43,520 bases of DNA from an uncultured Anaerolineae bacterium. GTDB lineage: Bacteria; Chloroflexota; Anaerolineae; Aggregatilineales; Phototrophicaceae. Of this stretch, positions 18,157-21,576 are shown in pieces. Every line of letters starts with the position of its first letter. Within the stretch, counting starts at the first letter, position 1. The position numbers and the translations under genes were made by a program. The stretch lies in assembly GCA_937922795.1 (NCBI GenBank), contig CALAJK010000041.1:1-43520 (forward strand), read 5' to 3'. The notes beneath the pieces are model-generated. The model made no database searches. It was not told where the DNA came from and saw nothing but the letters and a program-made list of their open reading frames with translations.

Positions 18157-19578
18157 TCAGGCGCGGCGGTGCGCCCGCAGCGCATAACTGCGCGCCGTGA
18201 TGGCAAAAATCGTGCACAGCCGCCGGTCAATCAGCCGGCTGATGATGCGCTCGTCAATGGCGCGCGCCGAGGCATCGCCGGCGCGGCCTTCAGTCTCGGC
18301 GTTCACATCCAGCAGTCGGGCGGTCGTGATGACCGTTGGCAGCTCAGCCACATACCGATAATCAATGATCTGAAAGAGTTTTTCCCTGGCCCAGGCGCTG
18401 GTTTTCTCTGTGCCCAGGTCATCCAGAATCAGCAGCGGCACTTCGCGCACCGCCTGGAAACGCTGGTCAAAACTCACCGGCGCGTTCGGGCTGAAGGTGA
18501 AGCGCAAATAGTCCATCAAGTCGGGCACGGTGACGAAGATCACATCTTTGCCGCGCTGTTCCTGCAGGTTGCCGATGGCCGCCGCCAGATGCGTCTTGCC
18601 GCAGCCATATGGCCCGGTCAGCACTAGCCAGCCCTGCAGCGCATCCGCATAGCGCTGCGCCACCTCATAGGCGCGCCGCAGGTTCGCCTGCTCGTCCGGC
18701 GTGGCATTCCGGTTCAGCTCGAACGTCTCAAACGTCATGTGGCGGTACAGATGCAGGTTCGACACGCGCTCGCGCGGCTTCTGCGACCAGGTGCGGTAGT
18801 CCGGCGCGGTGATTTTGGCGCGGTGCACCAGGCTGCTGTCGAGCAGGCGGCTGTGCAGGCGCGGATCCAGCCCGCTCAAATCGACGTTGGTGGTGATGAC
18901 GGTCGGCAAGCGGCGCGTGTAGCGGTGGTTGAAGAGCTGAAACAGCTTCTCCTGCGCCCAGGGGCTGCTGTTCTCCGCCCCCAGATCGTCCAGAATCAAC
19001 AGCTTAATGCTGCGCACGCGGTCGAACAGCTCATCATACCCTACTTCCGACGACGGCCCGTAGGTGCTGCGCAGATGGTCGAGCAGATCGGGGACGGTGA
19101 CGAACAGCACTGCCTCGCCGCGCCGCAAGCGGGCATGGCCGACCGCCGCCGCCAGATGCGTTTTGCCGCAGCCGAACGGCCCTTCCAGCAGCAGCCAACC
19201 GTCCGGCTCCTCAGCAAAACTCATCGAGACGCGCAGCGCCTGCTGCAGCGACATCTCCTGTGCCGGCGTCAGCCCAACCGGATTGATGACGAAATTTTCA
19301 AAGCTCTTATCGGCGTAGGCGTCCAGATTGCTGTGGCGGCGCAGCCGTTCCTGGCGGTCAAGATCGGTCTCGACCGGATTGTTGGGGCAGCGAAACAATT
19401 TGCCAAAGTAGGGATGGCCAACCGGGACATCGTAACGCACCACGCCCAACCCCTGGCAGATCGGCTCGCCGCCGCAGATCGGGCAGACGGTCATCTCCTC
19501 AGTGTTCGATGAAGTCGGCGTATTTCCCGGAGATATACCGCCGGCCATCTGGTTCATCAGCTCGTCCAGAGACTTCAC
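18157..19578 (-). CDS. DnaC/DnaI-like helicase loader with two tandem AAA+ modules
   Basis: About 473 residues. An N-terminal cysteine-rich region (C32, C35, C41, C64) resembles the zinc-binding domain of DnaI-type loaders. Two complete DnaC/IstB-type AAA+ modules follow. Module 1 has Walker A GPFGCGKT (133-140) and Walker B LLILDDLG (193-200). Module 2 has GPYGCGKT (322-329) and LLILDDLG (382-389). Each is preceded by an FExF linker and an amphipathic helix, so the whole unit was duplicated. Known DnaC/DnaI loaders have one AAA+ domain. The neighbouring DnaD-like and dnaB genes support a role in loading replicative helicase; a transposition ATPase is less likely, with no transposase nearby. 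GTG 19578 overlaps the previous gene by 80 bases; ATG 19494 would remove the first 28 residues. Confidence 0.88.
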   Translation of the reverse strand: MKSLDELMNQMAGGISPGNTPTSSNTEEMTVCPICGGEPICQGLGVVRYDVPVGHPYFGKLFRCPNNPVETDLDRQERLRRHSNLDAYADKSFENFVINPVGLTPAQEMSLQQALRVSMSFAEEPDGWLLLEGPFGCGKTHLAAAVGHARLRRGEAVLFVTVPDLLDHLRSTYGPSSEVGYDELFDRVRSIKLLILDDLGAENSSPWAQEKLFQLFNHRYTRRLPTVITTNVDLSGLDPRLHSRLLDSSLVHRAKITAPDYRTWSQKPRERVSNLHLYRHMTFETFELNRNATPDEQANLRRAYEVAQRYADALQGWLVLTGPYGCGKTHLAAAIGNLQEQRGKDVIFVTVPDLMDYLRFTFSPNAPVSFDQRFQAVREVPLLILDDLGTEKTSAWAREKLFQIIDYRYVAELPTVITTARLLDVNAETEGRAGDASARAIDERIISRLIDRRLCTIFAITARSYALRAHRRA

Positions 19579-20209
19579 GGCTCCTACCTTCCGCTTCCCA
19601 ACGCTTGAGTATGGATTGAATATAACGCCAACTGCGCTTGTTGCGCTCGACCGCTTCCCGCATCGCGTCCTCAATCCATTCTGGCGGATAGTCGCGCTCA
19701 GCGGCTTTGAGCGCATCCGCGATCATGGCCGTCAGCGGGCCGATGTTCGCCTCGTACAACCGGTAGATATTCGGGCGCTCCGGCAGGATTTCGACCGGGT
19801 TGGCCGCGTCCCCTGGTCGCCAGGCGCCCGCCTGAACCTGTTTAGCGCCCGCCCGGCCCAGGGGCGTATTCATAAAATACAGCGTCTCTGCGCCGCCCTG
19901 CAGGTTCAACTCTGCGCGCAGCAGCGCGCCGCGCTGCACCGCCCGCTCCAGAGCCGCGGTCAGGACGGCGTCGGGATCGCCGCCGGGCGCACAGGCGGCC
20001 AGCCCGCGCATCAGCGCTTCATTCGCCGCGAAGTCCTGTCGGCGCAGGTAGCGATACTTCTCATCTTTCTGCGGCAGGGACCAAAAGCAGAACAGGATGA
20101 CTTTCAGCTCCGCCAGATCGTCCACCAACGGCAGCAGATCGCTGAAGAAGGCCGACGGGACCTCGACCATGCGCGCCTTGCCTGGAGAAAAGCCGGCAAA
20201 TCGGTCCAT
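19499..20209 (-). CDS. DnaD-domain replication protein
   Basis: 236 residues. The N-terminal part (about 15-90) is a winged-helix-like region (VPSAFFSDLLPLVDDLAELKVILFCF...). The C-terminal DnaD/DnaB_2 domain (about 148-205) has YEANIGPLTAMIADAL, AEERDYPPEWIEDA-like sequence and the closing NKRSWRYIQSILKRW. It ends in the short conserved-looking tail YISGKYADFIEH. DnaD proteins remodel origin or restart-site DNA and recruit the helicase and its loader. Its start overlaps the dnaB stop by one base (TGATG) and its end overlaps the loader gene, so the three are tightly linked in one operon. Confidence 0.9.
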   Translation of the reverse strand: MDRFAGFSPGKARMVEVPSAFFSDLLPLVDDLAELKVILFCFWSLPQKDEKYRYLRRQDFAANEALMRGLAACAPGGDPDAVLTAALERAVQRGALLRAELNLQGGAETLYFMNTPLGRAGAKQVQAGAWRPGDAANPVEILPERPNIYRLYEANIGPLTAMIADALKAAERDYPPEWIEDAMREAVERNKRSWRYIQSILKRWEAEGRSREVSGRADEPDGRRYISGKYADFIEH

Positions 20210-21576
20210 CAGATACGGCTCAGATCGACGCTGCGCTCGGCGGCGTTGAGGAATTTGGTCAGCGTCTTGTCAAAATACAAGGAAACCGACCCAGTCGGCC
20301 CATTACGATGTTTGGAGACCAGCACGTCCGCTTGGTTAGGGACATCGGTCGCGTCATTATACACTTCATCGCGGTACAGGAACATCACCACGTCGGCGTC
20401 TTGCTCCAGAGACCCGGATTCTCTCAAATCGCTGAGCACGGGCCGTTTGTCCTGGCGCTGCTCGACCGCGCGCGAAAGCTGCGCCGCCGACAGCACCGGC
20501 ACATTCAACTCGCGCGCCAGCTCTTTCAAGCTGCGGCTGATGAAGCTGACCTCTTGGACGCGGTTGTTCGAGTACGCCCCGCCCGCGTTCATCAACTGCA
20601 AATAGTCGACGATGACCAGATCAATGCCGTGCTCCCGCGCCAGGCGGTGGCACTTCGTCCGCATCTGCATCGGGTTCATGGCGGGGGTGTCATCAATGAA
20701 AATGCGGAAATCGCTCAACAGCCCCACCGCGCGCACGAAACGCGACCACTCCTGCTGCGTGAGCTGGCCAGCGCGCAGGTTTTGGCTGTTGATCCCCGCC
20801 TCCATCGAAACCAGGCGCTGGACGATCTGCTCAACGCCCATCTCCATGCTGAAGATGGCGATGCGCGCCCCCAGCCGCGCCATGTTGATGGCCGCCGACA
20901 GCATGAAGCTGGTCTTGCCCATGCCCGGACGTCCAGCGAAGATCAACAGGTCAGTCCGCTGTAAGCCGCCCAGGAGCTTATCCAGATCTTTGAAGCCGGT
21001 CGGCAGGCCGATCGCCTGGTCTTGATACCGCATCAGATGCTCGATGCGATCGAAGTAGTCGCCCACGGCCTGGCGCAGCGGGATGAGCTCGCGCGAGAGC
21101 TGGCGCTCGGTGACCTCGAACAGTTTGGTCTCTGCGTCGTTGATGACCTGTTCGATCGACAGCGAGTCATCCAGCGCCAGCGCTTTGATCTGGTCAGCCG
21201 TAGCCATCAGGCGGCGGCGGATTGCGGCGCGCTCCACCAGCCGGCCGTAGACTTCGGCGTGCACCGAGGTGGGCGTGCTGTTCACCAACTGGGTCAGGTA
21301 GGCCGGCCCGCCGATCTCATCTAAACGTCCAATGTCGCGGAGCTCATTCAGGACAGTCAGGTATTCCAGCGGCTGATCCCGATCGACCAGGCGTTGAAAC
21401 GCCTCCCAGATATATCGGTGGCGCAGCAGGAAGAAATCGTCCGCCTTGAGGAATGCTGCCAGGCTGTAGTAAGCCGACGGATCAATCAAGACGGCGCCGA
21501 TAGTGGCTTCTTCGGCCTCCAAGCTGTACGGCGCGGGCTGCGCCCCAGGCACGTCGAACAGATCGCTGTTGATCAT
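20209..21576 (-). CDS. dnaB: Replicative DNA helicase DnaB
   Basis: 455 residues, normal for the family. The N-terminal helical domain begins PYSLEAEEATIGAVLIDPSAY. The RecA-like C-terminal domain has Walker A GRPGMGKTS, the H2-like segment RIAIFSMEMGVEQIVQRL, Walker B IDLVIVDYLQLM, and the later motifs LSAAQLSRAVEQR and LRESGSLEQDADVVMFLYRDE. It unwinds DNA as a hexameric ring at the replication fork. The ATG has no obvious Shine-Dalgarno, and a strong hairpin lies 30 bases upstream. No intein is present. It heads an operon with the DnaD-like protein and the double loader. Confidence 0.97.
   Translation of the reverse strand: MINSDLFDVPGAQPAPYSLEAEEATIGAVLIDPSAYYSLAAFLKADDFFLLRHRYIWEAFQRLVDRDQPLEYLTVLNELRDIGRLDEIGGPAYLTQLVNSTPTSVHAEVYGRLVERAAIRRRLMATADQIKALALDDSLSIEQVINDAETKLFEVTERQLSRELIPLRQAVGDYFDRIEHLMRYQDQAIGLPTGFKDLDKLLGGLQRTDLLIFAGRPGMGKTSFMLSAAINMARLGARIAIFSMEMGVEQIVQRLVSMEAGINSQNLRAGQLTQQEWSRFVRAVGLLSDFRIFIDDTPAMNPMQMRTKCHRLAREHGIDLVIVDYLQLMNAGGAYSNNRVQEVSFISRSLKELARELNVPVLSAAQLSRAVEQRQDKRPVLSDLRESGSLEQDADVVMFLYRDEVYNDATDVPNQADVLVSKHRNGPTGSVSLYFDKTLTKFLNAAERSVDLSRI

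Follow-up and report, generated by a model that had tools for sequence, protein, structure and literature searches.

The gene described here lies on the minus strand of the window, the whole stretch of 43,520 nucleotides that was analysed, at positions 18157–19578. It encodes a predicted tandem AAA+ helicase loader of 473 residues, with a GTG start codon at 19578 and the stop codon at 18159–18157. The start is the one chosen in the initial annotation and alternative in-frame starts are possible; the frame is listed as open from 19716, and matches begin at residue 1 of the query in 43 rows among the best 80 of 564 relatives. On the plus strand, the first frame of 18157–19578 contains stops. The same strand as the loader carries a DnaD-domain gene (19499–20209, 236 residues) and dnaB for the replicative helicase (20209–21576, 455 residues), the two neighbours that had been named initially. 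If the loader starts at 19578, its gene and dnaD overlap by 80 nt (19499–19578) in different frames.

Translation of 19578–18157 bears out the two complete ATPase modules, with Walker A and Walker B intact in both, and the Cys-rich N-terminal part that had been read from the sequence. The Cys-rich segment (19381–19485) contains C32, C35, C41, and C64, with a family consensus CPxC...PCxC; C32, C41, and C64 are invariant in 94 aligned two-module proteins. AAA+ module 1 (18775–19317, residues 88–268) carries Walker A GPFGCGKT at residues 133–140 and Walker B LLILDDLG at residues 193–200, followed by the sensor-1 residue Asn231, the Arg-coupler Arg240, and the Arg-finger Arg244, all named after DnaC (PMC8213410, in part). 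A linker of residues 269–281 (18736–18774) leads to AAA+ module 2 (18169–18735, residues 282–470), with Walker A GPYGCGKT at residues 322–329 and Walker B LLILDDLG at residues 382–389. Here Ala420 occupies the sensor-1 position, and Arg444 and Arg448 stand at the coupler and finger. Positions of the ssDNA locus are R170, Y173, S206, and W207 in module 1 and R359, F362, S395, and W396 in module 2. The two modules are 46% identical over 185 columns (E 4e-58), which excludes a chance likeness.

An FExF linker had initially been described ahead of each module. The motif is real, but it marks where the AAA+ unit starts and is no special linker, since F-[ED]-[NTS]-[FL] opens both modules in most relatives, as well as those single-module proteins whose row extends that far, and E. 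coli DnaC has E-N-Y at these columns (the preceding residue being trimmed off).

Module 2 of the window's protein has an insert of 15 residues (425–439, positions 18262–18306) between the sensor-1 position and the coupler. It is found in one of 110 aligned sequences, the window's own, and AlphaFold2 confidence is lower there.

Family assignment and gene context

Pfam IstB_IS21 (PF01695) matches the protein in two stretches with 139.9 bits (cut-off 24.1), in agreement with the proposal of two modules in one chain. A search of the loader's own genome with PF01695 likewise gave two separate matches inside its single open frame, and the only other matches in the assembly are a DnaA and an FtsH-like protein. 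Among NCBIfam models the best is PRK08116 (232.1 bits, cut-off 189), which represents a subfamily named 'hypothetical protein'. Scores for the DnaC and DnaI equivalog models fall below their cut-offs, as does that for the DnaA model (92.9 bits, cut-off 343.9); the DnaA of this genome is a separate gene scoring 469 bits. PHROG 50, 'DnaC-like helicase loader', matches with E 3.8e-93, and the sequence relatives among solved chains are DnaC, DnaI, and IstB. Genes labelled 'IstB' or 'hypothetical' by family models can be a chromosomal helicase loader.

An AlphaFold2 model, computed with 94 two-module proteins, has a pLDDT of 90.2 and a pTM of 0.75. The individual modules match the folds of DnaC (6qem, TMt 0.66, 3.0 Å), Aquifex DnaC (3ec2, TMt 0.80), and DnaI (2w58, TMt 0.72), and single modules also match the IstB fold. 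PF01695, PHROG 50, and these fold matches agree with the DnaC/DnaI-like loader that had been suggested at the outset. No tandem loader occurs among the 57 sequence hits to solved chains (E <= 0.001) or among the 50 fold matches listed.

The protein is an AAA+ ATPase of the DnaC/IstB family encoded by a resident chromosomal gene in a conserved context, and it lacks the features that define membership of IstB, DnaA, or DciA. It shares with E. coli DnaC the AAA+ fold, the Walker motifs, the positions of the ssDNA tetrad, and a coupler and finger spaced by four; Walker A and B, sensor-1, coupler, and finger are as in DnaC throughout module 1, where sensor-1 is Asn, and the tetrad residues are of equivalent type in both modules. 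Loaders of the DnaC/DnaI type are two-domain proteins, with an N-terminal helicase-binding domain and one AAA+ domain (PMC3290774, in part), whereas the chain described here has two AAA+ modules. DnaC, with one module, acts at 6:6 with DnaB, to which it binds by a small N-terminal helix (PMC9912922, in part); the tandem protein has the Cys-rich segment instead. DnaI of Bacillus subtilis and Geobacillus is also an AAA+ loader acting with DnaD, again with one AAA+ module rather than two. Its N-terminal domain binds zinc (PMC3290774, in part), and the likeness to our Cys-rich segment is one of description.

The gene neighbourhood is conserved. Among two-module loci with at least 1 kb of upstream sequence, 123 of 128 have dnaD adjoining the loader upstream and on its strand; of those with at least 3.5 kb, 70 of 80 have dnaB near it. 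Single-module loci have dnaD adjoining in 29 of 30 and dnaB near in 17 of 21. These counts include some genomes twice and the window as one locus. An overlap of at least 40 nt between loader and dnaD is found in 105 of 129 two-module loci, most commonly of 80 nt (36 loci), with starts set by a script rule that takes the first start codon in a set stretch. A DnaD gene directly upstream is also present in the Listeria phages LP-030-3 and PSU-VKH-LP041, with overlaps of 38 and 47 nt. Phage DnaC-like loaders of PHROG 50 therefore resemble the tandem loader both in sequence family and in the overlapping upstream DnaD-domain gene. At three two-module loci (L125, L129, and L132), dnaB lies directly upstream and the profile found no DnaD-type gene.

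We also compared the distribution of the loader (match threshold E < 1e-20) with that of DciA (PF05258) in a sample of 301 Chloroflexota genomes. The loader alone is present in 182, DciA alone in 95, neither in 24, and both in none, in agreement with the published rule that DciA and DnaC/DnaI are mutually exclusive (PMC9912922, in part). No match to PF05258 was found in the loader's own assembly, which is 85% complete. A Ser/Gly position in DnaB has been described as separating the helicases served by DciA from those served by DnaC/I (PMC9912922, in part); our comparison of 105 loader-type with 27 DciA-type DnaB rows is confounded by ancestry.

A profile search of the 24 genomes with neither gene, together with four genomes of family f3, recovered single-module loaders in f3. 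In the 24 genomes the best match had E 4.7e-16 and a few matches are pieces, which may be loaders broken at contig ends. Among the genomes without a strong loader or PF05258 match are six of family f19 (G008, G021, G040, G099, G107, and G227) and five of family f58 (G141, G173, G197, G245, and G273); one f19 and one f58 genome do have DciA. The named genomes perhaps have a diverged DciA, or another loader.

The exclusion of DciA, the dnaD and dnaB context, and the phage-like overlap with dnaD point to a chromosomal loader of phage origin. Judged from sequence, the gene very probably encodes the chromosomal DnaB loader, a domesticated DnaC of phage type, and the tandem protein would almost certainly load the helicase. 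The replication role that had been considered likely is strengthened by the conserved dnaD and dnaB context in relatives and by a loader that never occurs alongside DciA.

Distribution of the tandem form and origin of module 2

In a scan of GTDB contigs, both modules share one open frame at all of the best 80 loci among 564 relatives. The titles of these 80 records name Chloroflexota or its subgroups, except for L027 ('Pleurocapsa minor') and L032 ('Deltaproteobacteria'). Both of these encode full-length two-module proteins with dnaB and dnaD beside them as in the window, and they are probably misnamed bins. We classified 171 of the 182 loader-positive Chloroflexota genomes by module count, leaving out eleven. 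Two modules are present in 81 and one in 90, the latter comprising 86 counted directly and 4 with a second, weakly matching open reading frame taken for DnaA. Within the class of the window, two modules occur in 34 of 38 genomes, and family f3 accounts for all 4 singles. The tandem form also occurs in one-contig assemblies (e.g., G208, G005, G112, G226, G007, and G039). A search of reference genomes for the double architecture, which had been proposed with the initial annotation, thus shows that it is no peculiarity of the window's genome; it is widespread in Chloroflexota, where the tandem pair is retained in many families.

Outside the phylum, no tandem loader is present among the phage and plasmid matches listed (25 of 752 and 25 of 3780), which span less than 0.8 kb and therefore contain one module. 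A first viral scan for tandem loaders found nothing, and a second found single-module proteins throughout, in 80 of 80 cases (the best 80 of 505 relatives), against two modules here. The literature searched, mostly outside subscription, yielded no description of a tandem helicase loader. None is described in the available parts of PMC11208146, which deals with IstB, or of PMC8213410, PMC9912922, and PMC3290774, and the words 'tandem' and 'duplicat' are absent from the main text of PMC5109545 as far as available.

Some single-module loaders (L126, L127, L128, L131, and similar ones) lie in frames of ~430–660 residues with the module at the C-terminus. In the two that were scanned, L128 and L131, the first 320 residues match no Pfam family; these frames may include a real extension, or open sequence upstream of the true start.

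A FastTree phylogeny of 311 modules shows two groups of modest support. One (support 0.75) brings together 134 of the 136 first modules, 27 of the 32 singles, and 6 second modules; the other (support 0.59) contains 129 of the 136 second modules along with 4 singles and 2 first modules. With IQ-TREE (106 rows), the backbone is not resolved. We then used AU tests on competing topologies. A single clade of first modules and all singles is rejected (p 0.027). Not rejected are one duplication, in a set of two-module proteins only (p 0.417), and a separate duplication in the Anaerolineae-like group, in two reduced sets of our own selection: one of 64 rows of two-module proteins with 9 loci dropped (p 0.394), the other of 60 rows, obtained by dropping 28 long-branched, odd, or near-duplicate loci from the 106-row set (p 0.41). 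A clade of second modules alone was tested as first versus second modules among two-module proteins.

In a larger tree with 85 single-module outgroups, including 80 viral relatives (IstB and one weak row were dropped), a single clade (support 0.93) unites 130 of the 136 second modules with 4 singles and 1 first module. This clade sits inside a Chloroflexota clade (support 0.89) that is nested among phage loaders; the latter clade includes one viral row and lacks one second module. The first modules form no clade, being interspersed with 28 of the 32 singles and a small number of second modules. Since singles mix with both first and second modules, losses or hybrid deletions must be assumed. 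Among the module-specific residues common to both big lineages, 21 column–residue pairs agree in direction and 17 disagree, which weakly supports a single origin. The trees and residues suggest that module 2 probably arose once and was lost later in some lineages. In such an event, the AAA+ unit and the short SNL-containing stretch before it, recognized by eye, would have been duplicated in tandem without the Cys-rich segment. A single domestication of a dnaC/dnaI gene has been counted in Chloroflexi (PMC5109545, in part).

Catalytic and ssDNA-binding positions of the two modules

The active site of DnaC is defined by Walker A K112, Walker B E170, sensor-1 N203, coupler R216, and finger R220, and its ssDNA tetrad by K143, F146, S177, and Y179 (PMC8213410, in part). 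MAFFT places DnaC R216 in the column of the window's R244; we assigned coupler and finger, R240/R244 and R444/R448, by eye from the spacing of two Arg four apart. In a survey of 136 two-module proteins, the window included, the catalytic residues (Walker A Lys and Thr/Ser, Walker B Asp and Asp/Glu, and the finger Arg) are all present in 131 first modules, 127 second modules, and both modules of 122. The ssDNA tetrad is kept in 131 first and 133 second modules, and in both of 128. Ratios of dN/dS over 27 close pairs are well under 1 for module 1 (0.015–0.295, 26 finite values) and module 2 (0.018–0.398, 25 values), indicating that module 2 is under selection and not decaying.

The two modules differ at sensor-1: of the 136 proteins, 112 have Asn there in module 1 but 13 in module 2, and 30 of 32 singles have it. 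Second modules have mainly Ala (46), Ser (39), or Arg (11) at this position. Because four phage loaders, E. coli DnaC, and IstB all have the Asn, its loss looks derived. The asymmetry is weaker in the 81 two-module proteins sampled by genome, with Asn in 55 first and 18 second modules. Some lineages retain it in both modules, and in a small-genome group it is largely gone from both, so that the pairing of a strong module 1 with a weak module 2 does not hold throughout.

The modules are thus asymmetric in most relatives, at sensor-1 and in some lineages also at the coupler or finger. In 12 of 16 proteins of family f2 (example loci L224, L227, L234, L236, L246, and L247), the finger of module 2 is Lys and its coupler is lost; the P-loop of these 12 modules is altered too, and sensor-1 is not Asn in 10 of them. 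Module 1 is intact, and both ssDNA tetrads are kept, in all 16. Conversely, four small-genome proteins have changed both the finger of module 1 and its own sensor-1. An Arg or Lys at sensor-1 of module 2 accompanies the loss of that module's own coupler (13 of 14, versus 27 of 145). With three well-supported independent pairs behind it, we treat this co-variation as a lead.

In DnaC, the substitution N203A abolishes ATPase activity and gives the active-site mutant most compromised in loading (PMC8213410, in part). By analogy, the replacement of the sensor-1 Asn makes it fairly likely that module 2 would be a weak hydrolyser.

Possible arrangements on DnaB

The explanation that we favour as a whole, still tentatively, is a chromosomal tandem loader acting as a spiral of three chains, with module 2 as the weak hydrolyser. 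The N-terminal segment would tether the chain to DnaB, and the two AAA+ modules would lie side by side, filling adjacent positions in a spiral like that of DnaC; about three chains, with six modules between them, would then cover one DnaB hexamer. Both modules would grip ssDNA. ATP hydrolysis would fall mainly to module 1, which is chemically complete. Module 2 would bind ATP and ssDNA, but in lineages like that of the window its hydrolysis would be slow or absent, the sensor-1 Asn having been replaced. In published complexes, DnaB binds DnaC and DnaI at a ratio of 6:6 and lambda P at 6:5 (PMC9912922, in part), and three two-module chains would therefore suffice. Retention of the tetrad in both modules fits two neighbouring spiral positions per chain. 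The three-chain spiral itself is possible, though less well supported than the weak hydrolysis of module 2; the covalent dimer with half the number of subunits, as first suggested, would be such an arrangement.

How the modules meet in the ring bears on this arrangement. The finger and coupler act on the site of the neighbouring subunit, so changes confined to one module hint at contacts of like with like. A Lys finger in module 2 of f2 beside an intact module 1 fits contacts between first modules better than strict alternation, and the joint change of sensor-1 and coupler in module 2 hints at contacts between second modules. These residue patterns are some evidence against strict alternation of the modules in the ring, and the co-change within modules places three-chain and six-chain arrangements at similar likelihood.

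If six chains served each DnaB hexamer, the spiral would be built from first modules in contact with one another, and the second modules would make up a tier or arc of their own, giving a longer loader without halving its number. This arrangement is a serious if doubtful competitor. It accounts for finger and sensor-1 changing in the same module (module 2 in f2, module 1 in the four small-genome proteins) and for coupler and sensor-1 changing together in module 2, although few independent events underlie this co-variation. The 6:6 binding of DnaC and DnaI (PMC9912922, in part) suits it as well, and two tiers on one strand would be equally compatible with a tetrad in both modules. The predicted structure, however, does not superimpose on stacked two-ring AAA+ proteins. 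Tandem AAA+ proteins of the p97/VCP type also have two modules per chain, but belong to a different AAA+ clade and form stacked rings. Among the 50 matches listed for the full chain, the alignment to p97-type and other tandem AAA+ proteins is bad (rmsd 9.5–18.3 Å and TMq <= 0.38 for the stacked p97-type), and the model is therefore not a p97-like stack.

Alternatively, module 2 might stand outside the DNA-gripping spiral and serve docking or regulation, for example with DnaD or DnaA, as a nucleotide-dependent control of loading. Its greater drift at sensor-1 and coupler, the loss of finger and coupler in f2, and the overlap of the loader gene with dnaD speak for such a role. We regard it as unlikely, because module 2 keeps the ssDNA tetrad in 133 of 136 proteins (16 of 16 in f2) and because single-module loaders adjoin dnaD in 29 of 30 loci, which argues that DnaD needs no module 2. 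An IstB-like transposition helper with a duplicated domain, as the best Pfam name would have it, is barely credible: the NCBIfam IstB model scores 155 bits against a cut-off of 200, dnaB and dnaD are neighbours in most loci, the loader excludes DciA, and both modules have a coupler, whereas IstB, the IS21 helper ATPase with a related AAA+ module and a transposon context, has no clear one (PMC8213410, in part). We rejected this assignment on the score, the replication-gene neighbours, and the coupler. An erroneous joining of two genes in this draft assembly of 127 contigs, for which the initial annotation had allowed, is refuted for practical purposes by the single frame at all 80 of the best 80 of 564 relatives and by the one-contig assemblies.

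For the tandem spiral of three chains, one further consequence would be an asymmetry built into the chain. Three covalent AAA+ pairs would match the threefold symmetry of the DnaB collar, each pairing a hydrolyser with an ATP-held clamp on ssDNA; this is a speculative and rather improbable reading. If it were true, ring opening and release would be ordered by sequence, not by chance. The tandem form is common in the phylum, and what surprises is the asymmetry between its modules. A fused pair in which one half has changed at a position of known catalytic importance can be used to probe how many ATP sites a loader needs, which of them have to fire, and whether it matters that the subunits are identical. 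Single-module Chloroflexota loaders (e.g., L120, L133, and L139), which share the dnaD neighbour and lack module 2, are natural controls with matching gene neighbours.
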